The translations under genes were made by a program, and so were the position numbers. Below the pieces are notes generated by a model. The model did no database searches and was not told the origin of the DNA. It worked only from the letters and a program-made list of their open reading frames with translations. From Shewanella decolorationis S12 (GTDB lineage: Bacteria > Pseudomonadota > Gammaproteobacteria > Enterobacterales > Shewanellaceae), in assembly GCF_000485795.1 (NCBI RefSeq), contig NZ_AXZL01000056.1, forward strand, positions 1 to 64,000: a DNA stretch of 64,000 nt. Reading direction: 5' to 3'. Shown here in pieces: positions 23,234 to 40,241 of the stretch (position 1 is its first letter; each line of letters opens with the position of its first letter).

Positions 23234-24517
23234 CTATTCAATTATCAAGAATGGATGATCAAGATAGTTCGCTAGATACATTATGTAGTTGCTCGTCGTT
23301 GAGGGGAAAAAGTTATTTGCTTGGACTCCAGTTAAGTTTTTTACATATCTGAAGGGTTTTAACAAATTAGATAACAAGATGTTACTGGCTTCTTGCGGCC
23401 TTTCGCGAAGCATCACCAAAAGGTCTTCATGTTGTTTTTTGGAGTTCTTACTCCATCCAGGAGTATCTATATTATTGATAATTAGTTCGTTGCCCCCAAA
23501 CCAGGCATAAAGTCTGATAAGGCCTATATGGTCAGCAAGTTTGATCTCAACTGTCACATTATAGGAAGAGTCTGCTTCGAGATTCCAATTTGCCTCAAAT
23601 GTCACAATGCAAGAATATCCTAATATAGCTATAGGATTGTGCCATGCTATTGATTTTTCGAAATAAGTTATTCTGCTCTTCACTACTCTTGCCCAACCAA
23701 TCTTGCCTGTTTTCTTGAGTAAGCACAAATAGCGGTATGTCCGTGCTAAGGTAATTTTTTTATTTTCAACATTCCAAGTAACAAAGCTATTTCTGGTATC
23801 GTTAGCAACAAAGCTATTTGTCGCGTTCAAGAAGTCTGTGGGTAGATATTTAACTCTTCCAGAGATAGAACGCTGTGACTTATTTATGTTTTTGATTGAG
23901 CTAGCTAGTTTGCTTAATCTTTTATAATACCTCTTTTGGGCAGCAAGCTGTTCAGCTATTGCCAGTTCACGAGCCCGCTCTTTTTTAATGACTTCTTCAT
24001 CTATTCTGTTAGCTTCAGTTTTAATCTGCTGATACTGTTGCAAGTGTGGCTTAACCTGCTTTTGCATATCTTTGAGCACGTCTAGTGATAGTGGTTTTCG
24101 ATGTTCTTTCCATTTTGATACTTCGACGCAAACTCTATTGACTGCAGTTTGGTTAGTGAATACCGCAGTAGCCTCAAGGTTTTTTGTTCCTTTTCGTGTC
24201 AAATTTTGACTACCTATACTCGCAAACTCATTCGGAACGATTACACACTTTGCATGTAGTGAAGGTAGCGCATAGAGCTCAAACCCACGTTTTTTAAGCG
24301 TAATAAGGGTTTGTATGGAAGAACTGAGATTGATGAATAACTCGGCTGAAAATAACGTGTAAATATCGCATTGACCGCTACTCAAAGATGAAGTGACGGT
24401 CTCAGCAGTGCTCGAGGTTATATAAGGGGAGTAAATTTCTACAGAGGTTGCTTTTTTTAGCTCATTTTGCCATCTTCTTGTAACATTTCGGAAGAATAGC
24501 TCGTAATCCTTTTCCAT
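23234..24517 (-). CDS. phospholipase-D-fold protein, candidate defence nuclease
   Basis: A 427-residue protein. The N-terminal 150 residues have the PLD fold with one HKD-type motif: LHAKCVIVPNEFASIGSQNLT (His and Lys near residues 89-91, then GSxN). One motif per chain implies a dimer, as in bacterial PLD nucleases. A basic coiled coil follows (about 150-215), then about 210 residues I do not recognise. Stand-alone PLD proteins of this kind occur in defence islands. It is the outermost gene, 137 bp from the attachment site, and may have its own promoter downstream of a terminator at 24543-24584. Confidence 0.75.
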   Translation of the reverse strand: MEKDYELFFRNVTRRWQNELKKATSVEIYSPYITSSTAETVTSSLSSGQCDIYTLFSAELFINLSSSIQTLITLKKRGFELYALPSLHAKCVIVPNEFASIGSQNLTRKGTKNLEATAVFTNQTAVNRVCVEVSKWKEHRKPLSLDVLKDMQKQVKPHLQQYQQIKTEANRIDEEVIKKERARELAIAEQLAAQKRYYKRLSKLASSIKNINKSQRSISGRVKYLPTDFLNATNSFVANDTRNSFVTWNVENKKITLARTYRYLCLLKKTGKIGWARVVKSRITYFEKSIAWHNPIAILGYSCIVTFEANWNLEADSSYNVTVEIKLADHIGLIRLYAWFGGNELIINNIDTPGWSKNSKKQHEDLLVMLRERPQEASNILLSNLLKPFRYVKNLTGVQANNFFPSTTSNYIMYLANYLDHPFLIIE

Positions 24518-24542
24518 ACTTCAGACTATCCTTAGTGCTAAT

Positions 24543-24584
24543 GAAAAAACCGGGCGATAGTTCACTAAGAAACATGGCCCGGTT
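24543..24584 (-). terminator. rho-independent terminator of the HTH operon
   Basis: On the minus strand, AACCGGGC and GCCCGGTT form an 8-bp stem followed by TTTTTTC. It lies 205 bp after the HTH gene stop, so the intervening sequence is probably transcribed. Confidence 0.75.
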
Positions 24585-24788
24585 GTACCCACCCCTAACC
24601 CATATTGCTGAAAGCGGATTCAGTTACTTGGCGCACCTTTCTCCTAGCCAATGGCAAGCTATTCAGCACCGGAAATGTTTAAACACAACTTTCAGCCGAT
24701 AGAAGCTCAAAGTGGTGCGGTTAAAACCAAAACATTGTAATGGTGTTGTACATCCAACACTTAAGAGACGATAAGCTCGTCTTGGGCT
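24585..24788 (-). other. transcribed-looking non-coding segment with inverted repeats
   Basis: Between the HTH stop and the terminator. It contains a small hairpin (AGACGA with TCGTCT, 24766-24782) and a longer pairing between TTCAGCA- and TGCTGAA-type arms around 24608-24667. No ORF with a ribosome site was seen. It could be a long 3' UTR or a small RNA. Confidence 0.35.
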
Positions 24789-25493
24789 TTATTGGGTTAG
24801 GTCATTGTTGCTATTTGGCATAGAGAGGTCAAGCAAATTAATATCTTCAGTAGGAAGCCCTAATTTGAGCAATGCTTGCCTAATTTTGAACGCAAGTATA
24901 ATACGGTCATTATCATTGTTTTGCTTTTCTGATTGATGTTTAAAGCTAGGAAGTAAACAATAAATTTTTTCAACCATTTCTTGTGGGTTGTTAAATGTAG
25001 CGTAGTTTGGTGAGACCCAGTGCGCATCCTCGTTATCTGAAAACCCCATATTTTTAATATCAAGGTGATCTTTTAGGCCTAGTCGTTTCTGGAAGAGCAC
25101 TACAAATTGGTCACTACTTCTAATAACAATGACACGGCGAATACTTATAGACTTATTACTATCTAGAATTTTGGTTACATGCTTAAGTAGAATCTCGCCT
25201 TCAATACGGAAAAAGTAGATTTTATCCTCTGAATCGAATGAGTAAAAAAGGTGCTCCAACTTGCGTTTCAGTAAATGGCCAAACTCTTTAATAAGTCCAT
25301 TCATTTGTCTTTCTGTTGCTAAAGCCTCACCGTTTCTCCAGCGGGAAACCTGTGCAATCGATTTACCACTTAGACCTGCCTTTACAGCAATATCTGCATT
25401 TGTATAACCGTTATCGAGGGCAATGCGGATAATCTGTTTTGTAAACCGGTACTTTTTCTTATCCTGTGTTCCTTCCGAACGCTCCTTGATCAT
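24789..25493 (-). CDS. helix-turn-helix protein of the NPNN operon
   Basis: A 234-residue protein with an N-terminal Xre/Cro-like helix-turn-helix (about 15-50; ALDNGYTNADIAVKAGLSGKSIAQVSRWRNG) and a conserved ATERQMNGLIKEFGHLLKRKLEHLFY stretch. The C-terminal 150 residues are unrecognised. The start at 25493 follows a near-perfect AAAGGAG; the frame is also open 18 codons further upstream through the inverted repeat. It follows two tiny NPNN genes on the same strand. It likely regulates this operon or acts with the small proteins; both ideas are inference. Confidence 0.75.
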   Translation of the reverse strand: MIKERSEGTQDKKKYRFTKQIIRIALDNGYTNADIAVKAGLSGKSIAQVSRWRNGEALATERQMNGLIKEFGHLLKRKLEHLFYSFDSEDKIYFFRIEGEILLKHVTKILDSNKSISIRRVIVIRSSDQFVVLFQKRLGLKDHLDIKNMGFSDNEDAHWVSPNYATFNNPQEMVEKIYCLLPSFKHQSEKQNNDNDRIILAFKIRQALLKLGLPTEDINLLDLSMPNSNNDLTQ

Positions 25494-25510
25494 TGATATC
25501 TCCTTTAAAT

Positions 25511-25540
25511 CATGCTGGTGGTTATCATGCCACCAGCATG
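25511..25540. promoter_or_regulatory. perfect 11-bp inverted repeat before the HTH gene
   Basis: CATGCTGGTGG (25511-25521) and CCACCAGCATG (25530-25540) with an 8-bp spacer. It lies between the second small gene and the HTH ribosome site. It could be an operator for the HTH protein or an RNA hairpin controlling read-through. There is no U-run. Confidence 0.65.
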
Positions 25541-25546
25541 GTTTCA

Positions 25547-25684
25547 CTAATCATCACCTAAGTATGCATCATTGTTTGGATTGTGGGCATCTGCCCAATC
25601 GTCCATATTTGCATCATTGTTTGGATTGTTGATATCAGACCAAAGGTCCAATTCATCTGGAGACATATTACTAGTATTTGGCAT
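25547..25684 (-). CDS. 45-residue acidic NPNN repeat protein
   Basis: Starts at ATG 25684 after TAGGTAAC. The protein is acidic and Asn/Asp-rich, with a duplicated segment: NNPNNDANMDDW and HNPNNDAYLGDD (residues 19-30 and 34-45). No membrane segment or signal. It lies 8 bp after the first NPNN gene and shares its NPNN motif, so the two are related or partner proteins. Function is unknown. Although very short, the ribosome site, tight spacing and repeat make it likely to be real. Confidence 0.65.
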   Translation of the reverse strand: MPNTSNMSPDELDLWSDINNPNNDANMDDWADAHNPNNDAYLGDD

Positions 25685-25692
25685 AGTGTTAC

Positions 25693-25836
25693 CTACTTTT
25701 TATTGTCACTTTTATATTGAGAATTATTCGGATTTAACTGGTTTGAACGGTTTTTTTGAACGCTCTGATAGGCTTGGTTTGTACCAGATGTACCTTTGTT
25801 ACTATTGCTTTGGTTGGCCTTGTGGTTGTTATTCAT
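25693..25836 (-). CDS. 47-residue Asn-rich NPNN protein
   Basis: Starts at ATG 25836 after AGAAGGG. It is a hydrophilic protein rich in Asn, Gln, Ser and Lys, with the motif NRSNQLNPNN at residues 29-38. I have seen this motif in small uncharacterised proteins of marine gammaproteobacteria, but know no function for it. It is the first gene of a three-gene minus-strand operon with the second NPNN gene and the HTH gene, divergent from hsdR. Confidence 0.65.
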   Translation of the reverse strand: MNNNHKANQSNSNKGTSGTNQAYQSVQKNRSNQLNPNNSQYKSDNKK

Positions 25837-26169
25837 AGCTTGAACCCTTCTAAGTTATTTGACGTTAATGTCGATGTTAATTGTATGGAATACTGAGGGT
25901 TAGCTTGAAGTGATGGGCTTGTGATTGTTTGATGATACTCGGTGATAATGAGTGATATATTCATTAACCTATTCTTCACAACTTGTTTGGGATAGCTCTG
26001 GATAGTTAGTTAAACGATTCTACTCAAAAAGCTTTAACCTTAAATTATGTTAGTAGGTCGTGTTTTCAATCATAACCCTCTAACACAATTAGATTTTATG
26101 GCCTACTGCAGCAAACCTTGATATCTTCAGCATATGAATGGCAAAAGCAAGTTTTAGAAGGCACTATTG
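25837..26169. other. divergent promoter region between the NPNN/HTH operon and hsdR
   Basis: 333 bp, AT-rich, without a gene. It holds a direct repeat GTTAAT close to the NPNN side (near 25864-25882) and an AGAAGG ribosome site before hsdR. A likely control point for both cargo operons, possibly by the HTH protein. No operator copy of the 25511-25540 repeat was seen here. Confidence 0.45.
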
Positions 26170-29100
26170 ATGGGAAGCAATATTAGTAACTTCGATTTCC
26201 TTAAGCATCACGATGAACTGTTATTGCGTCTTGCACAAACAGCTGAATGGTGTTTTATACCGGACCCTAACACCACGCTTTTAAAGATGCGCCAATTGGG
26301 TGAGGAGCTAGCAAAAAACATTGCAGCTCGCGTTGGTGTGGCTTGTGGTCAGGGAATAAACCAAGTCGATTTACTTCGTAGCCTTGATTACTCTCTTAAG
26401 CTCGAACAGCGTATCAAAGATGCCTTTCATACGATACGAAAACTCGGCAATGCAGCTAATCACGATATCACCTCAAATAGTCACCGTGATGCCTTACAGT
26501 CGTTGCAAATAGGTCACGCTTTAAGTATTTGGTATCACCAGCTTTATGGTGGCGATGCGGCGAAAGGCTTTAAGCCTACCCCATTTGTAAAACCTAAAGA
26601 CCCTTCAGATGACGTTCGGATTCTCGAAGAAAAAATGCTCGAGCTAGAACGTCAACAGCAACGCACTTCCGAACGTCTTGCGGTTGCAGAATCGCTCAAG
26701 CGACTCGAACAAGAAAAGATGCAAGCCGAGCTTAAACGTGCAGAGCAAATGCAAGCCGAAAGTAAAATCTGGGAGCAAATTGCCACAGAGCAAGAAGCGA
26801 AACTCAATGAATACAAAGCCCAGATGGCTGCCACCAATCTTGAGCTGTATACCGCCTTCCAAGCTAAAGATCACCAAGCACAACAACAAGAAATTAAGCG
26901 TGTCGAAAAACTACCTTTTTATTTAGATGAAGCCGAAACCCGCATCATTATAGATAAACAGTTAAATGAAGCTGGTTGGAAAGCTGACACCACAAACTTA
27001 AAGTTCTCTAAAGGTGCACGGCCTGTCGAGAATGAAAACAGAGCAATTGCGGAATGGCCCACCAGCTCTGGTCCGGCAGATTATGTCTTGTTTATGGGAT
27101 TGACTCCCGTTGCAGTCGTTGAAGCTAAAAAAACAGCTAAGAATGTTTATAGCTCAATTGACCAAGCCAAACGTTATGCAAAAGGACTCGAAACAAAGAA
27201 TGCGTTCACAATAGAAACCTGCTGGAGAGACTTCAAAGTACCACTAACGTTTGCTACGAATGGTCGTCCATACCTTAAGCAGCTAGAACAAGAGAGTGGT
27301 ATCTGGTTTTTAGATGTTCGCGATAATAGCAACCGACGTAAAGCACTCAAAGGTTGGTATTCACCAACCGAAATCAAATTGCTTTTAAAACAAACGCCAG
27401 AGCAAGCAGAGCAAAAGCTTGATGCGATGGCCTTTGATTACGACTTAAAGCTGCGAGACTATCAAGTAAACGCTATTAAAGCGGTCGAGCAAAGTATTAA
27501 AGACGGCAAAGATCGTGCGCTGGTTGCAATGGCAACCGGTACAGGTAAAACCAAAACCTGTATAGCGTTGGTTTATCGACTGCTCAAATCTGAGCGGTTT
27601 AGGCGGATCTTGTTTTTGGTTGATCGCTCAGCACTTGGTGAACAAGCTACCAATGATTTCAAAGAAGTGCGATTAGAGCATCTGCAAACTTTTGCCGATA
27701 CTTTTGATTTGATGGGACTAAAAGACATCAAGCCCGAAGACAGTACCAAAGTTCATATCGCCACAGTACAAGGTTTGGTCCAGCGCATTTTATATCCCTC
27801 AGATAACGATACAAAACCTGGTGTTGGCCAATACGATTGTATTGTGGTCGATGAATGCCACCGAGGTTATTTACTCGACCGAGAGCTTAGTGATACCGAA
27901 ATAGTGTTCCGTGACCAAAAAGACTACCAATCAAAATACCGCTCGGTAATTGATTATTTCGACGCTTTTAAAATTGGTCTAACGGCAACTCCTGCGTTAC
28001 ATACGGTTGATATTTTTGGTGAACCAGTATTCAGCTATAGCTATACCGATGCAGTACTTGATGGACATTTAAATGATCATCTGCCGCCTGTACGCATCCA
28101 TACTAAGCTCGCCGAACAGGGGATTCACTATGAAGTGAATGAAGAAGTGAAGGTATACGATGCCGTAAATAACGATATCAAAATTTATAACACCCCAGAT
28201 GAGCTAGATTTTGATGTTTCGGAATTTAACCGTAAGGTTATGGCACCAAACTTCACCAAAGTCGTGACGAAATGGCTAATTGAAAGTGATGCGATTAATC
28301 CTTACTCAGATGCCAAAACATTGGTTTTTTGTGTCACCGATAAACATGCCGATGAAGTCGTTGAAGCCTTTAAGCAAGCCTGTGAAGACTACCACGGTGA
28401 AGTGGAAGACGACGCCATTCAAAAAATTACCGGCGCATCCGACAAACCGCTGGAAAAAATCCGTTTATTTAAAAATGACCGTCTACCCAATATAGCAGTG
28501 ACGGTTGATCTACTTACCACCGGCATTGACGTGCCCAAAATATGTAATCTGGTATTTTTACGTCGGGTAAACAGCAGGATCCTCTTCGAGCAGATGCTAG
28601 GTAGGGCCACGCGCCTATGTCCAGAAATTAGTAAAGGTCCATTTCGGATTTACGATGCCGTCGATATTTATAAACAACTCGAAAACGTCAATACCATGAA
28701 GCCTGTAGTGACTAATGTCGACATTAGTTTTACTGATCTAACGGGTGAAATGGCCAACAGCAATAACGAAGAGTTACAGACACTAGCCAAAAACCAATTT
28801 ATCGCCAAGTTACAAGTAAAAAGACGGTATTTAAGTCCTGAGCAGCAAGAAAAATTTGAAACCATTGCAGGGCAACCACCTGCGCAATTTATCAAAGAGC
28901 TTAAAACCATGTCAGCAGAGCAATTAGCAGAATGGTTTATTCATCATCCAGGCTTAGGTGAGTTGCTGGATGAAAAAGTCAAAGGTGGCTCAGGAAGCGA
29001 TCCACTGTATATCTCTGAGCATGATGACCAAGTCACCCATATCACCACAGGTTACGGTGACGGCCAAAAACCTGAGGACTATTTACGTTCTTTTAATGAC

Positions 29101-29586
29101 TTTGTGAATGCGAACAGTAACCGCTTGCTCGCAATTCAAACAGTCATTCAAGCTCCTTGGGAATTAACCCGACAAAGCTTAAAAGAACTGGCATTAGTGC
29201 TTGAACAAAATAAGTTTAGAGAACAAGATCTGCAGGTCGCATGGCATGAGGTTAAAAAAGAAGATATTGCCGCTCGTATCATTGGTTTTATCCGTCAAGC
29301 CGCTATTGGTGAAGCATTGATCCCATTTGAGCAGCGAGTTGATAACGCCTTAAATCGCATCCTTGCAAGTCAACAATGGAAAACACCGCAAATTCAATGG
29401 TTAAACACTATTGCAAAGCAAATGAAAGCAACAACCATTGTCGATGAAGCCGCATTAGAACAAGGTATTTTTCAACATCAAGGCGGGGTAAAACGGGCCA
29501 ATAAGCTCTTTGAGCAACCCATAGCGAATGTACTACTGATGTTCAATAAAGCCTTATGGCAAAACGATATCAGTAGGTCTGCATAA
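26170..29586 (+). CDS. hsdR: type I restriction enzyme, R subunit (HsdR)
   Basis: A 1138-residue endonuclease/translocase subunit of an EcoEI-type system. In order: a DUF4145-like domain (about 20-130, with IRKLGNAANHD), a coiled coil (about 145-250), the HSDR_N nuclease domain (PADYVLFMG then VVEAKK, about 300-320), an SF2 helicase motor with MATGTGKTKT (about 455) and DECHRGY (about 561), and the EcoEI_R C-terminal domain. I start at ATG 26170 rather than the TTG one codon earlier because of AGAAGG spacing. It cuts unmodified DNA after translocation and needs HsdM and HsdS. Confidence 0.95.
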   Translation: MGSNISNFDFLKHHDELLLRLAQTAEWCFIPDPNTTLLKMRQLGEELAKNIAARVGVACGQGINQVDLLRSLDYSLKLEQRIKDAFHTIRKLGNAANHDITSNSHRDALQSLQIGHALSIWYHQLYGGDAAKGFKPTPFVKPKDPSDDVRILEEKMLELERQQQRTSERLAVAESLKRLEQEKMQAELKRAEQMQAESKIWEQIATEQEAKLNEYKAQMAATNLELYTAFQAKDHQAQQQEIKRVEKLPFYLDEAETRIIIDKQLNEAGWKADTTNLKFSKGARPVENENRAIAEWPTSSGPADYVLFMGLTPVAVVEAKKTAKNVYSSIDQAKRYAKGLETKNAFTIETCWRDFKVPLTFATNGRPYLKQLEQESGIWFLDVRDNSNRRKALKGWYSPTEIKLLLKQTPEQAEQKLDAMAFDYDLKLRDYQVNAIKAVEQSIKDGKDRALVAMATGTGKTKTCIALVYRLLKSERFRRILFLVDRSALGEQATNDFKEVRLEHLQTFADTFDLMGLKDIKPEDSTKVHIATVQGLVQRILYPSDNDTKPGVGQYDCIVVDECHRGYLLDRELSDTEIVFRDQKDYQSKYRSVIDYFDAFKIGLTATPALHTVDIFGEPVFSYSYTDAVLDGHLNDHLPPVRIHTKLAEQGIHYEVNEEVKVYDAVNNDIKIYNTPDELDFDVSEFNRKVMAPNFTKVVTKWLIESDAINPYSDAKTLVFCVTDKHADEVVEAFKQACEDYHGEVEDDAIQKITGASDKPLEKIRLFKNDRLPNIAVTVDLLTTGIDVPKICNLVFLRRVNSRILFEQMLGRATRLCPEISKGPFRIYDAVDIYKQLENVNTMKPVVTNVDISFTDLTGEMANSNNEELQTLAKNQFIAKLQVKRRYLSPEQQEKFETIAGQPPAQFIKELKTMSAEQLAEWFIHHPGLGELLDEKVKGGSGSDPLYISEHDDQVTHITTGYGDGQKPEDYLRSFNDFVNANSNRLLAIQTVIQAPWELTRQSLKELALVLEQNKFREQDLQVAWHEVKKEDIAARIIGFIRQAAIGEALIPFEQRVDNALNRILASQQWKTPQIQWLNTIAKQMKATTIVDEAALEQGIFQHQGGVKRANKLFEQPIANVLLMFNKALWQNDISRSA

Positions 29587-29633
29587 TATTTTCATTGTAG
29601 TTCATTAAAAATGAGCGAAATTTAGGTAATAAC

Positions 29634-31139
29634 ATGAGCACTCAAGATCTGGTCGCCAAACTATGGAACCTGTGTAACTTACTCCGTGATGATGGCGTCA
29701 CCTACCATGAATACATCAATGAGCTGACCTATTTGGTCTTTCTTAAAATGGTAGAAGAGACAGGTAGAGAAGAAAAAAATATTCCTACTGGTTACCGTTG
29801 GGCCGACTTGGAGCGTTATGACGCCGCCACTCGCCTAGAAGAGTATAAAAAGTTACTCATTCATTTAGGCTCACATGGCTCTCAAATCACCAATGCTATT
29901 TATGCCAACGCCAGCACAGTCATTCGTAAACCGGCCACTTTAAGTAAATTAGTCAGTGAAATTGATAAGCTAGATTGGTACAGCGCCAAAACCGAAGGTT
30001 TAGGTGATATGTACGAAGGCTTATTAGAAATCAACGCCGGTGAGAAAAAATCAGGTGCAGGACAGTACTTCACTCCACGAGTATTGATCAATGTTATGGT
30101 CGAATTGATGAAGCCAAGTTTGGACGATGTGATTGTGGATCCAACGGCGGGCACTGGCGGCTTTTTAATTGCAGCTCACCACTACATAGCAGAACATAAT
30201 GACATTCCGTCACTGGATCCAACCGCCTACGACAAATATCAGCATGAAACCTTTTTTGGCATGGAGTTAGTACCAGATACTCGCCGCCTAGCCATGATGA
30301 ACCTTATGCTGCACGACCTCGCAGTTGATGATGAAAACTCAGGTATTTTATTTGGTGATACGCTTTCTAATGAAGGTAAAGCCTTACCACCAGCAAGTTT
30401 AATTTTGGCCAACCCACCGTTTGGTACCAAACAAGGTGGCGGAATCCCCACCCGTGATGACTTAATCACTTACACCAGCAATAAACAATTAGCATTTTTG
30501 CACTTAATGTATTTGCGTATGTTAAAGCCTGGTGGCCGTGCCGCCGTGGTATTGCCCGACAATGTGTTGTTCGAAGGCTCTACCGGCCAAACCATTCGTA
30601 AAGATTTAATGGAAAAATGCAACCTGCACACCATTTTGCGTCTACCGACCGGTATTTTTTATGCGGCAGGCGTTAAAACCAACGTATTGTTTTTCTCCAA
30701 ACCCACAGACCCGAAACAAGACAAAGGCCAGACTAAAAATGTCTGGGTCTATGACCTACGCTCGAATATGCCGCAGTTTGGTAAACGCACGGTTTTTACC
30801 AAAGCGCATTTTGATGAGTTTTATCAAGCTGTTGACAGCGACTTAACTACTGTGGATGAAGCCGCTCGCCATGCTTTTATCGAACAATACACAAACAATG
30901 GCGGTGACCCTACAACCTGCCGCCTACGTTGCTTTAGCCGAGAAGACATCGCCAGAAAAGACGACTCGCTTGATTTAGCTTGGATCCGCGACGATAGCGC
31001 AGAAGATAGTGCCAACTTGCCAGACCCTGATGTGCTAATTAACCAAGCTTTGGAGGAAATGGCCGGTGCCATGCTGGAGCTTAAGGCTATTTTGGTAGAG
31101 CTGGGGTCAGAGGAAGAAGCGGGCGAGGTGGTGCTGTGA
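29634..31139 (+). CDS. hsdM: type I DNA adenine methyltransferase, M subunit (HsdM)
   Basis: A 501-residue N6-adenine methyltransferase. It has the HsdM N-terminal helical domain (about 1-125), SAM motif I DPTAGTGGF (about 168-176) and the catalytic NPPFG (about 260). It modifies host target sites and is the core of the restriction complex. It lies 47 bp after hsdR with TAGGTAA before the ATG, and overlaps hsdS by 4 bp. Confidence 0.95.
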   Translation: MSTQDLVAKLWNLCNLLRDDGVTYHEYINELTYLVFLKMVEETGREEKNIPTGYRWADLERYDAATRLEEYKKLLIHLGSHGSQITNAIYANASTVIRKPATLSKLVSEIDKLDWYSAKTEGLGDMYEGLLEINAGEKKSGAGQYFTPRVLINVMVELMKPSLDDVIVDPTAGTGGFLIAAHHYIAEHNDIPSLDPTAYDKYQHETFFGMELVPDTRRLAMMNLMLHDLAVDDENSGILFGDTLSNEGKALPPASLILANPPFGTKQGGGIPTRDDLITYTSNKQLAFLHLMYLRMLKPGGRAAVVLPDNVLFEGSTGQTIRKDLMEKCNLHTILRLPTGIFYAAGVKTNVLFFSKPTDPKQDKGQTKNVWVYDLRSNMPQFGKRTVFTKAHFDEFYQAVDSDLTTVDEAARHAFIEQYTNNGGDPTTCRLRCFSREDIARKDDSLDLAWIRDDSAEDSANLPDPDVLINQALEEMAGAMLELKAILVELGSEEEAGEVVL

Positions 31140-32704
31140 GCGAGTTGCCGAATGGGTGGGCGAAATGCAAACTCAGTGAGTTCAGTGTGATCGAGATGGG
31201 GCAATCCCCCAAAGGCGAATTTGTTGGTGACACTCCAATAGGACTGCCATTCTATCAAGGTAAGGCTGAATTCGGTAAATGGTACCCAACCCCCCGAAAG
31301 TACTGTAGTCAGCCAACTAAAATAGCTGAAAAAAATGACATTCTTCTGTCAATAAGGGCCCCTGTTGGCCCCACAAATCTATGTCCCGAGAAAAGTTGTA
31401 TTGGTAGAGGGCTAGCTTCAATAAGAGCATTTGAAGAAAAATCTCAAAAATACCTTATCCATTATTTTAGGTATTTAGAGCCTTGGTTAAGTGAACAAGG
31501 GACAGGTTCAACGTTCAAAGCCATAAGTGGTGGATTTATAAGAGACATTGATGTTTTAGTTGCCCCACTAAACGAACAAATTCGCATAGCAGACAAACTG
31601 GATTCAATTCTGGCCAAAGTCGACCGCGCCCAAGCGCGCCTAGACAAAATTCCCGGCATCATAAAACGTTTCCGCCAATCCGTCCTCGCCGCCGCCACAT
31701 CTGGTGAGTTAACTAGAGAATGGCGTGGAAATAAAGATGCAAACTGGGAAACCACAGTTTTTGGCGATTTAATAAAAAACGGGCCTCAGAATGGAATTTA
31801 TAAGCCTTCGTCTTCATACGGAAGTGGTACAAAGATAATACGTATTGATGGGTTTTATGATGGAAATTTGTCACCTTGGTCAACGATAAAGCGCGTTCAG
31901 TTGGATGAGTCGGAGCTTTCTAAATGGAAATTAAATGTTGACGACATTTTGATCAATCGAGTTAATAGCATAGAGTACCTGGGTAAGTGTGGTCATGTCG
32001 ATGCTCTACCAGAGGATGCAGTATTTGAGAGTAATATAATGAGGGTTGAGCTTGATAAAGCTCGCGCAATCCCTCGATTCATTAAGTATTTTCTTTCCAG
32101 CACCACTGGGCTAAGCCAGTTGAGGGCAAATGCAAAACATGCTGTAAATCAAGCAAGTATTAATCAAACAGACGTGAAGTCAGTAGAGATCCAATTACCA
32201 AGCATTGAAGAGCAAACAATCATAGTTAATAAGGTTGAGGCGCTCTTTCTTAAAGCTGATTATTTCGAAAAACAATATTCTGACGCTAAAAAACTCATCA
32301 ATAAATTAGGCCAATCTTCTTTAACTAAGGCTTTCCGAGGGGAATTAGTAGAGCAAAACGATACTGAAGAGCCTGCCAGCCAATTGCTAGCGCGAATTAA
32401 ACAGCAACAACTTGAAGCTCCAAAGGCAACCAGACAAACTAGAAAATTAGCAGCAAAACTAAGTCCTTCAGTTGATGTGGTTGAAACTGATGTTGAGTTG
32501 GCACCGCAAGAAAGTGAAATTCTTGCTCTCTTGAAAAATGCAACTGGCGAGTTATCCGCACAGCAGATTATGGATAAGCTGACCGAGAAAACCTTTGAGC
32601 AAGTCGATGCGCTTTTTACCGAGCTTAGACGCTTACTTGATAATAATTCGATTGTAAAAGTTGGATCTGGTGAAGCCTGTACTTTTAAGGCTATTAAAAG
32701 ATGA
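31136..32704 (+). CDS. hsdS: type I specificity subunit (HsdS) with C-terminal winged-helix-like extension
   Basis: A 522-residue DNA-recognition subunit. Two target-recognition domains (about 1-150 and 205-370) are each followed by a conserved helical spacer (NEQIRIADKLDSILAKVDRA and SIEEQTIIVNKVEALFLKAD). Residues about 450-522 form an extra domain (ESEILALLKNATGELSAQQIMDKLTEKT and on), which looks like a small winged helix and is absent from classical HsdS. The start is GTG overlapping hsdM; the stop overlaps the next gene (ATGA). The two recognition domains differ, so a bipartite asymmetric target is expected. Confidence 0.92.
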   Translation: MSELPNGWAKCKLSEFSVIEMGQSPKGEFVGDTPIGLPFYQGKAEFGKWYPTPRKYCSQPTKIAEKNDILLSIRAPVGPTNLCPEKSCIGRGLASIRAFEEKSQKYLIHYFRYLEPWLSEQGTGSTFKAISGGFIRDIDVLVAPLNEQIRIADKLDSILAKVDRAQARLDKIPGIIKRFRQSVLAAATSGELTREWRGNKDANWETTVFGDLIKNGPQNGIYKPSSSYGSGTKIIRIDGFYDGNLSPWSTIKRVQLDESELSKWKLNVDDILINRVNSIEYLGKCGHVDALPEDAVFESNIMRVELDKARAIPRFIKYFLSSTTGLSQLRANAKHAVNQASINQTDVKSVEIQLPSIEEQTIIVNKVEALFLKADYFEKQYSDAKKLINKLGQSSLTKAFRGELVEQNDTEEPASQLLARIKQQQLEAPKATRQTRKLAAKLSPSVDVVETDVELAPQESEILALLKNATGELSAQQIMDKLTEKTFEQVDALFTELRRLLDNNSIVKVGSGEACTFKAIKR

Positions 32705-34293
32705 AGTTAGATTACCTGATCATTCGCTCCGGCTTTAAAAACATCAGCAATTTGAAAATTGAGTTTGATGAAGGCCAATTGCTAACCGTCTTGGTGGGCC
32801 GAAATGGTTCGGGTAAATCCAATATCATCGAAGCGCTGGTCAGAATTTTCCGTGCATTAGATTTGGGCGAGCTTGCACCTTTTAGCTATGAGTTAGTTTA
32901 CTCGCTTGGTGCGGAAAACCGCATTTGGGTAAAAGTTGATGCCGACCCAGCCTACGGCAACACACCGATATCGCAGCATCAAATCGAAGTCGCGGAAAAG
33001 CTTGGCCAACATGACATGCCGATTTGGAACAAAGTATCTCTGGCCAAAGTGCAGCGTGATAAAGCAGGTCAATCCGCATATTTACCGAAACATCTTTTTG
33101 CTTATTACTCTGGCCCAAGTGACCGGCTTGAAAGCTTGTTTGTAAAACATCGCACGGATTTTTATTACCAATTGCTTAAAGACAAAGTAAAAATCGAAGA
33201 TGAAGTCAGACCACTATTTTATGCGAAACCTTATCATAGTCAGTTTGTGTTATTAGCTTTCTTTCTCAGTGGACAAAGTGATGAGGGGAGGAAGTTTCTC
33301 GCAGCACAACTCGGTATCAAGCAGTTTCACTCGGCACATTTTGTCTTTAGGAAACCATCATGGGAACGAAGTAAAACCGATGCTTTTTGGGGAGCTTATG
33401 GTGTTGTTCGGGAGTTTCTGAATCGCTTACTACCACATACTTTTGGTATGGTTAGAGCAACTAGAGAAGAAACAACCTCTTTAACCGGGAAAGGCAAAAA
33501 TAATGATTTTGTTCATGTGTATTTACCTGACTTAACTGCGTTAAATTCAACCGCTAAAGGTCTCGGTCCAAAAAACTTCTTTAAGATGCTGGAAAGCACT
33601 CTGCTTTCAGAGTTGATTTCCAGTGTACATATTAAAGTTGTACTTAATAATAATGAGATTGTGAGCTTCAGTGAGTTAAGCGAAGGGGAGCAGCAGTTGC
33701 TTACTGTGTTTGGCTTAATGCAATTTACCGCTGAATCTGATTCATTATTTTTACTTGATGAACCGGATACCCATCTAAACCCGGCATGGGCGGCAAAATA
33801 CCACGCTTTCTTAAACCGGTTTATTCCCAATAAAAACCACTGCCATATCGTTATGGTCACCCATCATCCGCTAGCTATTGCTGAACTGAATAAAGAACAA
33901 ATCCAAGTGTTGCATCGCGACTCAATTGGATTGTCATATGCCGAACAACCAGCTGAAAGCCCGATTGGTATGGGCGTCAACGGCATCTTAACCAGCGACA
34001 TGTTTGGTATGGCGACAACGCTGGATCAACACACTAGTAAAGTGATTGAAGACCGGCGGAAAATTTTAGAAAAAGATGAGCTGAATGAAGATGATAAGGC
34101 AAAACTTCGAAAGCTGAATTCATCGTTGGAACGTTTAGGATATGGATACACTCACCCCGATGAGGATTATAGGCAGTTTCTTATTGAGCGGAAAAAAGCC
34201 ATGCATGCCATGGAATTGAAATCGATCGACACCACGGAAATACGCATGCAGATTGTTCAGCAAATACTTAAAGAGCGGGGGTATTCTGTTTGA
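32701..34293 (+). CDS. AAA ATPase, Septu PtuA-like, coupled to hsdS
   Basis: A 530-residue ABC/SMC-type ATPase of the defence AAA_15/AAA_21 kind. Walker A is GRNGSGKSN (about 33-41), the signature is LSEGEQQLLTV, Walker B is LFLLDEPDTHLNP (about 350-362), and the H-loop is VTHHPL (about 385). A conserved FAYYSGPSDRLESLF segment lies near 138. The C-terminal 100 residues are charged helices. Its ATG overlaps the hsdS stop, and the HNH-like gene overlaps its own end. The pair matches the ATPase plus HNH layout of Septu (PtuA/PtuB); exact subtype not assigned. Confidence 0.8.
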   Translation: MKLDYLIIRSGFKNISNLKIEFDEGQLLTVLVGRNGSGKSNIIEALVRIFRALDLGELAPFSYELVYSLGAENRIWVKVDADPAYGNTPISQHQIEVAEKLGQHDMPIWNKVSLAKVQRDKAGQSAYLPKHLFAYYSGPSDRLESLFVKHRTDFYYQLLKDKVKIEDEVRPLFYAKPYHSQFVLLAFFLSGQSDEGRKFLAAQLGIKQFHSAHFVFRKPSWERSKTDAFWGAYGVVREFLNRLLPHTFGMVRATREETTSLTGKGKNNDFVHVYLPDLTALNSTAKGLGPKNFFKMLESTLLSELISSVHIKVVLNNNEIVSFSELSEGEQQLLTVFGLMQFTAESDSLFLLDEPDTHLNPAWAAKYHAFLNRFIPNKNHCHIVMVTHHPLAIAELNKEQIQVLHRDSIGLSYAEQPAESPIGMGVNGILTSDMFGMATTLDQHTSKVIEDRRKILEKDELNEDDKAKLRKLNSSLERLGYGYTHPDEDYRQFLIERKKAMHAMELKSIDTTEIRMQIVQQILKERGYSV

Positions 34294-35162
34294 GATTTAT
34301 TGATCCCGCATTAATTCCTGCGTGCAAACCTCACGATTGGGATGTCAAAAGTGTGCAGTGGTTAGCCAGAGTTGCTGCTGCTCAAGACAAATCCGACGAA
34401 ATCAAGAAGCTTAAAAATCCCTGGAAAAAGTTCAAGGTGAACTTCGCAAATACCTTTGGTGATAAGTGTTGGTATACAGAAGCTGCTCGCATCGGAACAA
34501 CCAATGATGTTGATCATTTTCGTCCGAAAAATGCAGTTAAAGACCAATTTGGACGACATGTTGCCCGTACAAATGCTGCAGGTGTTGTCGAGTACGCAAA
34601 TTATTGGTGGTTGGCTTATGAACCACTGAATTATCGCTATTCATGCATATTTAGCAATAGGGCCAATGGAGATGGAGGAAAACAAGAGTTTTTCCCATTA
34701 GAAGATGAGACAACTCGAGCGTGGACCCCTTCTTGTCCTTACATTAGGGAAGATGTCTCATTCCTAGATCCATGTAACAGTAATGATGTTCAGTTAATTG
34801 CTTTCGATGTAACAGTGGGCATGGCTGAGCCACGATTTAGCGAACAGCAAGATCCAAAAGCGTTTAGGCGTTTTCAACTAAGCAAGAAATACTACAACCT
34901 CAATGAAAAGACAATTGTCGACGCGCGAATGGAAGTGCTCAGCGAGCTAGCCAAAGATCTCAATCTTTTAGAGTTAACTTGGAGTTTTGATCCAGTTATT
35001 AAAGCGTCAATGCAGCCTGCATTAGATGCTGCGAAACAGGGAATTGTTAATAAATGCTCGCGCAAAGCTAAATTCTCGGCGGCTGCCGTTGCCCTGGTTA
35101 AAACTAAACAAGCAGAGCCTTGGCTTGCCGATGTTTTACCTTTACTAGATCTTTCCCCTTAA
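34290..35162 (+). CDS. HNH-like nuclease, Septu PtuB-like partner
   Basis: A 290-residue protein. The key stretch is KCWYTEA (about 59-65) followed by DVDHFRPK (about 73-80), the beta-beta-alpha metal core seen in HNH proteins of Septu and of some retron effectors, here with CWYTEA in place of the more usual CAYCE. The TTG start overlaps the ATPase stop (TTGA), so it should be made in fixed ratio with the ATPase. It would act as the toxic nuclease released or activated by the ATPase; this is inferred from the family. A change of the usual zinc Cys to Thr is notable. Confidence 0.75.
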   Translation: MRFIDPALIPACKPHDWDVKSVQWLARVAAAQDKSDEIKKLKNPWKKFKVNFANTFGDKCWYTEAARIGTTNDVDHFRPKNAVKDQFGRHVARTNAAGVVEYANYWWLAYEPLNYRYSCIFSNRANGDGGKQEFFPLEDETTRAWTPSCPYIREDVSFLDPCNSNDVQLIAFDVTVGMAEPRFSEQQDPKAFRRFQLSKKYYNLNEKTIVDARMEVLSELAKDLNLLELTWSFDPVIKASMQPALDAAKQGIVNKCSRKAKFSAAAVALVKTKQAEPWLADVLPLLDLSP

Positions 35163-35264
35163 GGTCGTTCTGGCTAGGTGTTTGGGAAATGATTGTTTTC
35201 CTTTTTGGGGAGGTTAGCGACCACTTTATGGAAATGAATCATTAAATAGGGATGTGAAAATACC

Positions 35265-36134
35265 ATGAAAAATCAGACGCTGAAAATAGCAGACCTCGCT
35301 GGCATTGAATATTACGGGACCGCAGGGATAACAACTCGGTGCTTAACTGCACTCACTATGGTTATTCAAGCTGGTGGTGAGATCATCACAAGAGCCTTCT
35401 TGCTTTCCGACGTGGATAGTAGTTCCAATTGCGGCACGCATTGCTTGTTATTGTGGCCAGAATCAAGTGACCCCATAGTCATTAAATCAGGTTTTGCTTC
35501 TGGTTATCTTGGTGAAGGCCCAAGAGGGCTATCCAGCGCGCTGCAGCTTCTGATTCGCCACAATATCGAAATTAAAGAATACGCAGTCGATGCAAATTTT
35601 ATCCAAAGAGCCAATAGTTCATGTTTGACACTAGCCGATTTAGCTATGTTCGAAACACTGCAGCCAATAAGACCTGCACGCTATTACGACTACATCCTGC
35701 TTAGAGAAGAACAGCGCTTTTACAATGACAATCTAGTCAAAGTGCTCTTTGTTAAAAACATTCCTTTTTCACTCATTGATAACCGCATTATGGATTTAGC
35801 CATTGATTTCAGTAATAACCCAGATGCCAATCTAATGACTTGCTATCGCCGTTTAGAAGACATTATCCGAAGAAGAACGGGTTTGGAAGGGGAAAGCGGC
35901 TCTAAGTTATTTTCGCAGGCATTCCTTGGCAACAATGCTCCGCTGTACTGGCCTGAGTTACCGGAAGCAGAGGCAAGAGGCCGAGCAGGCCTTTTTACCA
36001 GTATTTACATGGCTTATCGCAATAGTCGTGCACACAAAGAAAACGTAACAACGTTAGATGATGCAATAAGAGAGGTTTTACTGATAAACCAATTGTTTAT
36101 TCTTGAAAATGAAGCCAAAAGCCAAGAGAACTAA
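35265..36134 (+). CDS. two-part protein with C-terminal Ymh (TIGR02391-like) domain
   Basis: A 289-residue protein. Residues about 175-285 match the Ymh/TIGR02391 fold found in mobile elements and defence loci (RRLEDIIRRRTGLEG, then GRAGLFTSIYMAYRNSRAHKE). Residues 1-110 form a separate beta-rich part with SNCGTHCLLLWP and SGFASGYLGEGPRGLSSALQLL; I do not recognise its function. It has its own ATG with GGGATG upstream, 102 bp after the HNH-like gene and 92 bp before mcrB. It may be a stand-alone defence gene or a regulator or accessory of either neighbour. Confidence 0.65.
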   Translation: MKNQTLKIADLAGIEYYGTAGITTRCLTALTMVIQAGGEIITRAFLLSDVDSSSNCGTHCLLLWPESSDPIVIKSGFASGYLGEGPRGLSSALQLLIRHNIEIKEYAVDANFIQRANSSCLTLADLAMFETLQPIRPARYYDYILLREEQRFYNDNLVKVLFVKNIPFSLIDNRIMDLAIDFSNNPDANLMTCYRRLEDIIRRRTGLEGESGSKLFSQAFLGNNAPLYWPELPEAEARGRAGLFTSIYMAYRNSRAHKENVTTLDDAIREVLLINQLFILENEAKSQEN

Positions 36135-36226
36135 CATCTAATTGAGTACTGAAGGTTAAATCTGCTCTCACTTAAAGCTTGTGTGGTTAAACGCTTTAGG
36201 TTTGAAATAGGGTTACAGAGGAACTA

Positions 36227-38974
36227 ATGGCAAGATATTGCGGTAATCAAAATTCTGCTCCGTTGATAAAAGTTGCACAAGATTTTCAAGCCCAATCTTT
36301 AATTGCTGGCAACTCATTGCTGACGAATAAGCCAATCTGGGGGCTGAAAACCATTGATGAACTAGTAAAATATTTCGTTGATAACTTAGATGAAGGTGAA
36401 GGCGATTTTTTTTCTAAACTAGAAACTCAGCTAAAACCTGCCTCGGCAGACGCCAAGATATTATTAGCAGAGATGCTTTGGTTTATGTCCCTATGCCCTA
36501 GCAATGTTGGACCTTCCTCTAAACGCGATACAGTAGAACGTGTTTTTGCCTTTTCTGGCAAAAACCTAGCTGATACTGTTCCTGTAGATGTTCAAAAAGA
36601 ATACCTTTCTGATGAGGTGCTAACCGGAATAGGTAAAACGGGGGCGGCATATAACACTGGCCGTTGGCGTGAGTTAGTTTATTTTATTCGCTTATTAACT
36701 GAATTGTTTAAATTAAGTGCCAGTGAGCGCTCAACCTTACTTGCCAATCACGAGGCATTTTCAACGTGGTTAGAGCTTATCCCTGAAAACAGCCAACGAC
36801 AGTTTCGCCACATGCTCTTGTATCTGTTTTATCCTGATTCGCAAGAGCGTATTTTTGGTGGTAGCCATCGCCAGTCACTACTCACTAAATTTGCCAACAT
36901 CAGCGCTTCACAATTTAAGAAAATGCCTGCTCATGATGTGGACAATCAATTATTAGATATTCGCAGAAAATTTGAGCAAGAATATGGCACTCAAGAACTT
37001 GATTACTATGTTGAGCCGCTTAAATCTCGTTGGGATAGAGAGAATGTTTCAACCACTATTGCTGAGCAAAATGCTGAATATGAGAGTAAGGATAAAACTA
37101 TGGCGTCCAACAATAACAACACTAGTTTAAATCAAATCCTTTATGGTCCTCCTGGTACAGGCAAAACCTACAATACGATTAATCGTGCATTACAAATCGT
37201 AGCTCCGGAGTTCTACCGTTCGAATAAAGATAACAGAGTTGAGCTCAAGACACATTTCGATGATCTAGTTGCTAAGAACCGTATTGGTTTTGTCACCTTC
37301 CACCAGAGCTTTAGTTATGAAGATTTCGTCGAAGGGCTTAGAGCCAATAGTGATGAAGCAGGTCAGGTTAGTTATGATCTTGAGGATGGTATTTTCAAAC
37401 GTATGTGTGCAGCTGCAAATGCTAAACCTATAATGGCTAAATCTCAACGTCGAGTTGATGTTTCTGGACGCAAGGTTTGGAAGATGTCGCTAGGCGATAC
37501 TCTCGGTGATGATGCATATATTTATCAACAATGTATTGAAAATAATTATGTGCTGTTGGGTTACGGTTATAACGTTGATTTTAGTACTTCAAAAGACAGG
37601 AAAGGCGTGATTGATGCCTATAAATTCAACGGTATTGAGATAGAAAAAGAGAGTAACGACTACAGAGTAACATCGGTTCAAAACTTTAAAAATGTAATGT
37701 CTATCGGCGACTTAATCGTTATTTCTGATGGTAATCGAAAATTTAGAGCGATTGCCGAAGTGACTGGTGATTATCAATATGATCCTACGGCCATTGAGGA
37801 TGATAGTTACTCGCAGATGCGTAAAGTTATTTGGCACCGCATATACGAACCTTCTTTACCTGTAGATGAGTTGTTTAATAAGAACTTATCGCAGATGACG
37901 TTGTATCGTTTACGAGAGCCCGTATTAGATGTAGTAAAGCTTCAAGATATGCTTCTTGGTGAACAGACTAAAGATGGAACTTTACCGAGTGTCGCTGTAG
38001 GCACTCAAATTTCATCATATATGGTTGAGTCCATATCTGATGAAATTATCGGTTTGAGAAAGCCAAATGGCGCTTTATTACCTATGCCGAGGATTATTAT
38101 CGATCAACTAGTTTCTTTAGTGAAACTCAATCTAATATCAGTTGATGATATACGTTCAAAGAGAGTGTTTGAGCGTATTATTGATTCGGACATGGAGAAG
38201 TTCATTATAAATGGTTATCCCAATGTCTTGGCTCCCTTAGTCGAATCGATTCATCATTATGGTCTAGATACAAAGGCACTAACCTCTTCCGATAATCGGG
38301 TCTTGATTATCGACGAAATTAATCGCGGCAATATATCAAATATTTTTGGAGAGTTGATAACACTTATCGAGCCAAGTAAGCGTACCGGTGGTTCAGAGTC
38401 ATTGTCGGTTAAATTGCCGTATTCTAAAGAGTCATTCTCCGTCCCTTCTAACCTTTACATTATTGGAACAATGAACACCGCTGATAAGTCCTTAGCTCAA
38501 GTAGATATTGCACTTCGTCGTCGTTTTGAATTTGTTGAGATGATGCCTAAGCATGAGTTGCTTGAAGGAATTGATATTGAAGGGATCAACATCGCTAAGT
38601 TACTCGAAGTCATAAATCAACGTATTGAACTAATTTATGACCGAGAGCATACCATCGGCCACAGTTTCTTTTTACCCTTGAAGTCAGAACCAACCATTGA
38701 ACGCTTAGCACGTATATTTGAGCTAGAAATATTGCCTTTACTTGAGGAATATTTCTTTGAAGATTGGGAGCGGGTGGGGCAAGTGCTTGGTGATCAGTTT
38801 AAGAGCACCAATCCAGAGTTAAAGTTTATAGAAGAAAAGTATACAGATGCTTCAGTATTGAAGCTGATGGGCAGTGACTGGTCACAAGATAGTATTCGGC
38901 CATATAAACGCAATATGGCAGCATTAACTAACCCAGAAGCATACATAGGTATTTATGAATCGCCTCAAGGTTAA
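36227..38974 (+). CDS. mcrB: McrB-type AAA+ GTPase with inserted EVE-like domain
   Basis: A 915-residue motor of a type IV (modified-DNA) restriction system. Residues 1-270 are an unrecognised N-terminal domain, probably the modified-base reader. The AAA+ core starts with LYGPPGTGKTYN (about 305-316). A separate beta-rich domain of about 150 residues (405-560; YVLLGYGYNVDFS, VMSIGDLIVISDGN, FRAIAEVTGDY) interrupts the core and resembles an EVE/PUA-like base-reading domain. Walker B is VLIIDEINRGNI (about 692) and the McrB GTPase signature appears as MNTADKS (about 750). AGAGGA precedes the ATG. It overlaps mcrC by 20 bp. Confidence 0.88.
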   Translation: MARYCGNQNSAPLIKVAQDFQAQSLIAGNSLLTNKPIWGLKTIDELVKYFVDNLDEGEGDFFSKLETQLKPASADAKILLAEMLWFMSLCPSNVGPSSKRDTVERVFAFSGKNLADTVPVDVQKEYLSDEVLTGIGKTGAAYNTGRWRELVYFIRLLTELFKLSASERSTLLANHEAFSTWLELIPENSQRQFRHMLLYLFYPDSQERIFGGSHRQSLLTKFANISASQFKKMPAHDVDNQLLDIRRKFEQEYGTQELDYYVEPLKSRWDRENVSTTIAEQNAEYESKDKTMASNNNNTSLNQILYGPPGTGKTYNTINRALQIVAPEFYRSNKDNRVELKTHFDDLVAKNRIGFVTFHQSFSYEDFVEGLRANSDEAGQVSYDLEDGIFKRMCAAANAKPIMAKSQRRVDVSGRKVWKMSLGDTLGDDAYIYQQCIENNYVLLGYGYNVDFSTSKDRKGVIDAYKFNGIEIEKESNDYRVTSVQNFKNVMSIGDLIVISDGNRKFRAIAEVTGDYQYDPTAIEDDSYSQMRKVIWHRIYEPSLPVDELFNKNLSQMTLYRLREPVLDVVKLQDMLLGEQTKDGTLPSVAVGTQISSYMVESISDEIIGLRKPNGALLPMPRIIIDQLVSLVKLNLISVDDIRSKRVFERIIDSDMEKFIINGYPNVLAPLVESIHHYGLDTKALTSSDNRVLIIDEINRGNISNIFGELITLIEPSKRTGGSESLSVKLPYSKESFSVPSNLYIIGTMNTADKSLAQVDIALRRRFEFVEMMPKHELLEGIDIEGINIAKLLEVINQRIELIYDREHTIGHSFFLPLKSEPTIERLARIFELEILPLLEEYFFEDWERVGQVLGDQFKSTNPELKFIEEKYTDASVLKLMGSDWSQDSIRPYKRNMAALTNPEAYIGIYESPQG

Positions 38975-40241
38975 CGATGTCATCGTTAGGGAGTTTGCTC
39001 TTTTAACTAATGAAGGCAACAACCGAAGCATAGATTGTCACTCAATACCCAAGTCTGCGTTTGAGTGGCTGCTTGCTAATGGGGTGAGTAGTGGTGAAAA
39101 GCAGCGGGAGCTAGTTAAGGTTAAACGCTACGGGAAATCAATCGCATTGCAGGTGGTGAACTTTGTTGGTGTGCTTGAGACGCCATGTAGAACCCGTATT
39201 GAGATTTTACCTAAAACGACTACAAATGAGTGTGAGCCCGAAATGGCTCGCAAAATTTTGCTTAAAATGCTGGCTAGCGTAGATAAACTTAAGTTAGAGG
39301 AGTTTCAACAGTCACATTTACAGTTACTAAAGCAACCTCTCTATGAGGTGTTGATTGCATACTTTCTCAAGTCTGTCGCTAAGCTGGTAAAGCAAGGTAT
39401 AAGAAGTGAGTACCAGCGCGTAGAAAGCGAGTCCTCATTTCTAAAAGGCCAGTTACTGGTAGCTAAACAACTAAGACAGCGACCTGGTCGTCAGCATTAC
39501 TTTCAAGTTTCTCACGATGTGTATCACGCTAATCGGGCAGAAAACCGCTTATTGCATTCATCATTAAAGCAAGTGTTTAAGTGGGCTAGAACGAGTGCTA
39601 ACCAGCGTCTAGCAAGGGAATTATTATTCATATTTAGTGACACTGAAGAGTCTGCAGATTTTGCTCATGACTTTAGGCTTTGGACAGATAACAGAAGCCT
39701 TGCTCATTATCGACCGCTTAAACCATGGTGCGAGCTTATTTTGAGCTATCAATCACCAGTTGCGATGGTTGGAAATCATGGTGGGTTATCTTTCTTATTT
39801 CCGATGGAAAAACTATTTGAGCGCTATGTAGCTAAGCAACTATCTGCGCAACTGCCACCAGCATTAAAATTGAAGGAACAGGTCTCGAGTAAAAGTCTAA
39901 CCCATCACAATGGCCAGGACTGGTTTAGGCTAAAACCGGATATAGTGGTTTATGATAAATCGCGTGTGGTCACAGTGATGGATATCAAGTGGAAGTTGCT
40001 TGATGCTTCACTTGACACCACAAAGGATAAATACAACTTGAGTCAGTCAGATTTGTACCAGTTGTTTACTTATGGTGAGAAATACCTAGAAGGTCATGGT
40101 GAGTTATATCTGATTTACCCTAAGCATGCTAGTTTTACTGAGCCTTTAGGGCACTTTGAGTTCAAACCAGGTTTGATACTACATGTTGTGCCTTATGATC
40201 TTGAATCTGATGAAGGCCTTACTAATCTAGAGGTTTCGTAA
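38955..40241 (+). CDS. mcrC: McrC-type nuclease subunit
   Basis: A 428-residue partner of McrB with an N-terminal beta domain that contacts the McrB hexamer and a C-terminal PD-(D/E)xK nuclease: LKPDIVVYD, then VMDIKWK (about 326-346). McrBC cuts DNA with modified cytosine using GTP. It starts inside the end of mcrB, so it is translationally coupled. Last gene of the defence run. Confidence 0.92.
   Translation: MNRLKVNDVIVREFALLTNEGNNRSIDCHSIPKSAFEWLLANGVSSGEKQRELVKVKRYGKSIALQVVNFVGVLETPCRTRIEILPKTTTNECEPEMARKILLKMLASVDKLKLEEFQQSHLQLLKQPLYEVLIAYFLKSVAKLVKQGIRSEYQRVESESSFLKGQLLVAKQLRQRPGRQHYFQVSHDVYHANRAENRLLHSSLKQVFKWARTSANQRLARELLFIFSDTEESADFAHDFRLWTDNRSLAHYRPLKPWCELILSYQSPVAMVGNHGGLSFLFPMEKLFERYVAKQLSAQLPPALKLKEQVSSKSLTHHNGQDWFRLKPDIVVYDKSRVVTVMDIKWKLLDASLDTTKDKYNLSQSDLYQLFTYGEKYLEGHGELYLIYPKHASFTEPLGHFEFKPGLILHVVPYDLESDEGLTNLEVS

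Follow-up and report, generated by a model that had tools for sequence, protein, structure and literature searches.

The window, the whole 64,000-nucleotide stretch of Shewanella decolorationis S12 DNA that we analysed, carries a cassette of three genes, P0001, P0002 and P0003, which lies divergent from hsdR (Table 1). All three frames are where the preliminary description had placed them, and of the NPNN motif it had seen in both small proteins P0001 has one copy and P0002 two. The internal duplication reported for P0002 is present in degenerate form, and the protein is acidic as described (pI 4.05, charge -11.4). P0001 had been called polar and Lys-rich; it is basic (pI 10.2, charge +5.6), but Asn, at 28%, marks its composition more than Lys does. 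The two small genes are 8 bp apart, and their ribosome sites, both described as good, are fair for P0001 (AGAAGGG) and modest for P0002 (AGTAGGT); the site of P0003, whose ATG lies behind TTTAAAGGAGATATCA, is excellent.

Table 1 Features of the cassette and its divergent neighbour.
Feature	Coordinates	Strand	Remarks
P0001, basic NPNN microprotein, 47 aa (MNNNHKANQSNSNKGTSGTNQAYQSVQKNRSNQLNPNNSQYKSDNKK)	25693..25836	-	144 relatives, pN << pS
P0002, acidic NPNN microprotein, 45 aa, two NPNNDA units	25547..25684	-	conserved behind P0001, ten other loci
P0003, 234 aa, XRE-type HTH (~residues 16-79) + beta-rich C-terminal domain	24789..25493	-	
Stem-loop between P0002 and P0003	25507..25544	-	15-nt arms, 93% complementary
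Iteron array, predicted P0003 operator, P0001/hsdR divergent region	25910..25956	-	five ATCAY, 10/10/11/11 bp
hsdR, divergent neighbour, promoter region shares array	26167..29586	+	PADLOC REase_I E 1e-252

The small frames are conserved in related loci of other genera, at the amino-acid level and in the same order. In pairwise comparisons with the window between genera, pN was 0.04-0.12 for P0002 and 0.12-0.28 for P0001, against a pS of 0.7-1.2, which at this distance is near saturation, and pN was below pS in 55 of 55 pairs for P0001 and likewise in 55 of 55 for P0002. Judged by this conservation P0001, P0002 and P0003 are real genes, the small frames not being chance ones because the gene order is kept in other genera and pN lies far under pS. 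Short frames ahead of P0003, as in the window, might suggest leader peptides (attenuators) or frames that arose by chance in the leader of P0003; this is extremely improbable, since their amino-acid sequences are conserved across genera and phyla and NPNN genes also occur convergent or antisense to their neighbours with no downstream HTH gene; the low pN and this independence of context led us to reject the idea. Rfam gave no match to a known RNA element. The stem-loop trails P0002 at its 3' end in 11 of 11 loci compared, with or without P0003, and for this reason positions 25511-25540, previously put forward as a binding site of P0003, are likelier an RNA stem than an operator.

A profile search of a species-genome collection with the P0001 family returned 144 relatives, and the best 80 were taken further. 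By their titles, these best 80 of 144 come from Pseudomonadota, Bacteroidota, Campylobacterota, Spirochaetota, Fibrobacterota, Desulfobacterota, Cyanobacteriota, Deferribacterota, Bacillota/Mycoplasmatota and one archaeal MAG, which places the family in about ten phyla, several of the records being MAG contigs in which contamination is possible. The consensus is roughly NHxANQxNxNKGTxGTNxxYxxxxxNRGxQLNPNx, and NP[NQT] is present in 78 of the 80. The core of the wider NPNN family, N(H/R)xNQxNPN in a highly polar protein of fewer than 100 aa, is found here. Neither P0001 nor P0002 matched Pfam, NCBIfam, PHROGs or PADLOC, and NPNN genes therefore escape both annotation and defence finders; in the open literature we found no paper on an 'NPNN motif', on the peptide NKGTSGTN or on Asn-rich small proteins in phage defence. 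A phage origin was considered and rejected, as 50,697 phage records held no P0001 or hsd-type NPNN relative (the hsd type is a second acidic subtype, see below); viral contigs held no P0001 relative, a few hsd-type loci and one P0002-type locus.

P0002-type proteins (MSQDELDLWSDINNPNNDADMDDWADAHNPNNDDYLGDD) are encoded directly behind P0001-type genes in ten loci besides the window, in Shewanella, Vibrio, Pseudoalteromonas, Alteromonas and Amphritea, and basic and acidic NPNN genes of other subtypes adjoin in one Bacteroidota genome (L159). The second acidic subtype (MSKHDDDNHSNQLNPNNDAYWQSRGEDERPDDWQEQLDDE), whose genes sit antisense within type I RM operons, has a core in common with the P0001 C-terminus (NRSNQLNPNNxxY); its HMM gave mostly chance-level matches in 369 genomes of the class. 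Two unusual arrangements were also seen: a 105-aa P0001-type protein consisting of two tandem copies of itself, with a P0003 relative downstream (L205:1138-1455), and, in the same genome as the window (contig C72), a second NPNN gene directly after the gene of a 907-aa ankyrin-repeat protein (L005:1462-1602), a pair that is almost identical in genomes G038 and G050.

The suggestion that P0001 and P0002 are partners stands as far as the shared motif, the opposite charge and the adjacency in ten more loci go, but an obligate partnership is not supported, because many basic and some acidic members stand alone: most of the 80 loci (best 80 of 144) have P0001 relatives without a P0002-like gene, and P0002-type genes occur without P0001 in L232, L233 and L236. 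The same observations bear on a reading of the cassette as a triad of basic toxin (P0001), acidic antitoxin (P0002) and transcriptional regulator (P0003). Three-gene arrangements of this kind exist, for example PaaR-PaaA-ParE, and two small genes of opposite charge, 8 bp apart and accompanied by an HTH gene, would fit one. We nevertheless consider it improbable, as P0001 and P0002 lack the type II trait of genes kept together, share one motif, and gave no fold or family of a known toxin.

The region 25837-26169, proposed earlier as a site of P0003, contains an array of five half-sites (starting at 25910, 25921, 25932, 25942 and 25952) which we predict to be its operator. Across P0003 loci the pattern is ATCAC-n5-ATCAC-n5-WTCAC-n6-ATCAC-n6-ATCAC. 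With three mismatches allowed, the window array is the single match in the 4.84-Mb genome, a reversed control pattern and shuffles giving zero matches, and the single site means that there are no distant regulon targets by this pattern. Calling as an array any chain of at least three half-sites at 10/11 bp, we found one in 11 of 19 P0003 loci versus 0 of 64 loci without P0003 (Fisher 4.7e-9, with the loci linked by kinship and the value uncorrected for it; shuffled-sequence mean 0.005), and in 14 of the 19 when either form of the half-site was allowed; three Neisseria loci and L106 have P0003 and no such array. As some of the counted loci had first drawn attention to the motif, a held-out test was made on three new P0003 loci from an independent P0002 search. 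All three have an array, with five ATCAY in L230, three in L234 and a TTCAC version spaced 10, 10, 11 and 11 in L238; the held-out locus L231, with a P0001-like gene and no P0003, has none. The array of P0003 loci, with its single site in the 4.84-Mb genome, is newly described here.

The array lies 58-74 bp from the start of P0001 across loci (74 bp in the window), whilst its distance to the divergent gene varies from about 80 to 400 bp, and autoregulation is therefore its first predicted role, the only one that the distances really indicate; no promoter consensus stood above chance in the array region. The preliminary description had the HTH protein controlling the defence genes. Control of the cassette's own NPNN genes by P0003 is well supported by the sequence, since arrays occur only with P0003; beyond that, P0003 may plausibly control neighbouring defence genes such as hsdR.

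The search for NPNN-type small proteins beside HTH genes that had been recommended was productive: no gene accompanies P0001 relatives more often than P0003 relatives do, which adjoin 13 of 80 loci (best 80 of 144), lie directly downstream in 11, and include examples from Neisseria, Vibrio, Leucothrix, Psychromonas and a Methylococcales MAG. The AF2 model of P0003 (pLDDT 84) combines an XRE HTH with a beta-rich domain; its PDB matches, with many controller proteins and repressors among them, are confined to the HTH, and of those listed for the whole-protein comparison none matched the C-terminal domain. Downstream of P0003 the window encodes a PLD-domain protein, weakly DrmC-like (23234-24517), and L230 likewise has a PLD-like protein, read by eye, in this position.

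NPNN genes have further partners. In all 13 loci examined the hsd-type acidic genes lie tail-to-tail with a neighbour, the gap ranging from -48 to 117 bp; in 12 of them the neighbour encodes a 350-480-aa protein with no Pfam match, and in L078 another gene lies between. The model of this convergent ~400-aa protein is helical and had no PDB match. Its Shewanella and Pseudomonas groups both have a C-terminal W-G-PS element that recalls an HTH, homology between them not being established (hhalign probability 0.8%). Pseudomonas-group proteins adjoin either acidic-subtype genes (L206, L207) or P0001-type genes (L141, L148, L168), which links the subtypes. A ~112-aa family (GWSQKRLGREIY), HTH-like by eye, lies divergent to the NPNN gene, with P0002-type genes in L232, L233 and L236, fused in L235, and with a P0001-type gene in L113. 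NPNN genes thus recur with unrelated, probably DNA-binding partners; as they also occur without P0003, they are independent of it and not simply its ligand.

NPNN genes also recur beside defence genes. The divergence of the cassette from hsdR holds as described, and the cassette here adjoins a type I RM system with Septu and McrBC. The dense defence island of the window (26167-40241) runs from hsdR-hsdM-hsdS directly into PtuA/PtuB (Septu), the ends overlapping (HsdS ends at 32704, PtuA starts at 32701), and further holds a Hypoth_Ymh protein (35265-36134) and McrB/McrC (36227-40241). Other P0003 cassettes lie by type I RM (L065), DndB with DndC/D-like genes (L066), a type III methyltransferase and an HKD/Snf2-type helicase (L090), McrBC (L094), an hsdM (L095), Drt1a and hsd genes (L096) or a PHP/Ppl-like gene (L098), and TnsA-like genes, read by eye, also adjoin L094 and L095. 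In three genomes (L069-L071, two of which recur as L091 and L092) P0001/P0002 without P0003 lie ~300 bp downstream of prokaryotic viperin genes. A pVip lies within 1 kb of 5 of 80 loci (best 80 of 144, including related genomes) and is carried by 2 of 299 genomes of the phylum, so that far fewer than one would be expected near the loci by chance. Of the 80 loci (best 80 of 144), 15 have type I RM genes within 5 kb, HsdS being present in 62 of 120 genomes at about one or two genes per several Mb; the locus sets include related genomes, and the neighbour counts are without phylogenetic correction. Elsewhere, in Psychrobacter, the gap between cas1 and cas4 of a type I-C CRISPR system holds a P0001-type gene in antisense orientation (L142:9900-10200), and L077-L084 have NPNN genes of 33-92 aa, likewise antisense, in type I RM operons between the hsdS and hsdR genes, where they lie tail-to-tail with a variable 400-480-aa gene. 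The contexts of P0001 in Brachyspira, Neisseria and Kaistella held no recognisable defence island. In L069-L073 and L231 a three-gene module without Pfam match, encoding a ~200-aa membrane protein, a ~130-aa secreted protein and a ~222-aa 'PEAIRxLF' protein, recurs ahead of NPNN genes together with viperin or PDC-M51 genes.

It may be that P0003 governs its own cassette only, and that the cassette is an independent small-protein module, with a stress or defence function of its own, which merely shares islands with immune genes. An array at a fixed distance from P0001 only, the lack of distant array sites in the genome, the stand-alone P0001-P0003 pairs in Neisseria and the P0001 relatives outside islands all agree with this. 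Passive sharing explains poorly, however, why NPNN genes lie directly beside the very rare pVip genes in three lineages, or on the opposite strand within type I RM operons and between cas1 and cas4, and we regard such a module as rather unlikely. Less probable by far is that the acidic NPNN protein mimics DNA and restrains a neighbouring nuclease, in the way that Ocr and ArdA act on type I RM: the strong negative charge (pI about 4) and the acidic NPNN genes beside or inside type I RM operons are suggestive, but at only 40-45 aa the protein falls far short of Ocr or ArdA in size, basic relatives have the same motif, and NPNN genes recur beside viperins, which do not cut DNA. We think this very improbable.

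The explanation that we prefer, and to which we give an even chance, is a self-regulated defence-island cassette in which P0003 represses the NPNN genes and the NPNN proteins serve as accessory factors of neighbouring immunity. P0001, P0002 and P0003 would have spread between genomes and accompany defence systems. P0003 is predicted to bind the iteron array upstream of P0001 with one repeat per helical turn, probably cooperatively, and when bound would repress the P0001-P0002-P0003 transcript, repression being the putative sign of the regulation. Since the array lies in the divergent control region, P0003 would probably also damp the neighbouring defence operon, hsdR in this case. The NPNN proteins, short, very polar and probably unstructured, may act through their repeated N(H/R)xNQxNPNNxxY motif, which most likely binds another protein, and so would serve the immune system next to them. 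More tentatively, and at somewhat less than an even chance, NPNN proteins may form an undescribed class of defence-associated small proteins in about ten phyla, with a common protein-binding motif and several unrelated HTH-type partners, which plugs into immune systems as unrelated as type I and III RM, Dnd, viperin, DRT1 and CRISPR I-C.

To our knowledge, few regulator families of defence islands are known, and in the P0003 cassette we have a regulator whose operator can be predicted precisely, in a region that hsdR shares. The NPNN family offers strongly conserved proteins of under 50 aa that are found repeatedly beside immune genes, and may be an accessory that immune systems of unrelated kinds have in common.

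RptR (PMC12255303) is a precedent for a type I RM island governed by a local repressor that acts on direct repeats. It is encoded by hsd genes' side, is conserved in Gammaproteobacteria and binds direct repeats ahead of its own gene; the cassette here likewise has direct repeats within 30-75 bp of its first gene (74 bp), beside type I RM. This likeness is one of arrangement, not homology: RptR is a small, single-domain, all-alpha (four-helix) protein which binds TAGCTA and, in the accessible part of that report, is described without NPNN proteins (PMC12255303), whereas P0003 has 234 aa and, in its model, two domains (HTH and beta-rich), and the window repeats are ATCAY at 10/11 bp, TAGCTA being absent from 24480-26200. 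BrxR/CapW is one family of WYL-domain regulators beside many defence systems (48% of BrxR homologues; PMC9122601). P0003 likewise accompanies many kinds of defence system, but has no WYL domain match (no Pfam match, E up to 1), and BrxR binds inverted repeats (PMC9122601). By these analogies, P0003 resembles RptR and BrxR in outline and lacks their defining features. Among solved structures, those nearest to the N-terminal domain of P0003 are controller (C) proteins of restriction-modification systems, such as C.Csp231I and C.Esp1396I (3lfp: Z 5.9, 2.7 A, 64 residues), residues 16-79 of the model scoring Z 5-6 against them, below the level that separates families. They too have a role near RM genes, and an XRE-type HTH of which P0003 has a putative counterpart, but are single HTH proteins of ~80-100 aa, in contrast to P0003 with its second, beta-rich domain and its recurrence beside non-RM systems. 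The NPNN proteins, for their part, are like other small proteins of defence loci in being encoded by sub-50-aa genes overlooked by annotation, and differ from them in their NPNN and NKGTSGTN motifs, for which the family libraries and open papers searched yielded no described family.
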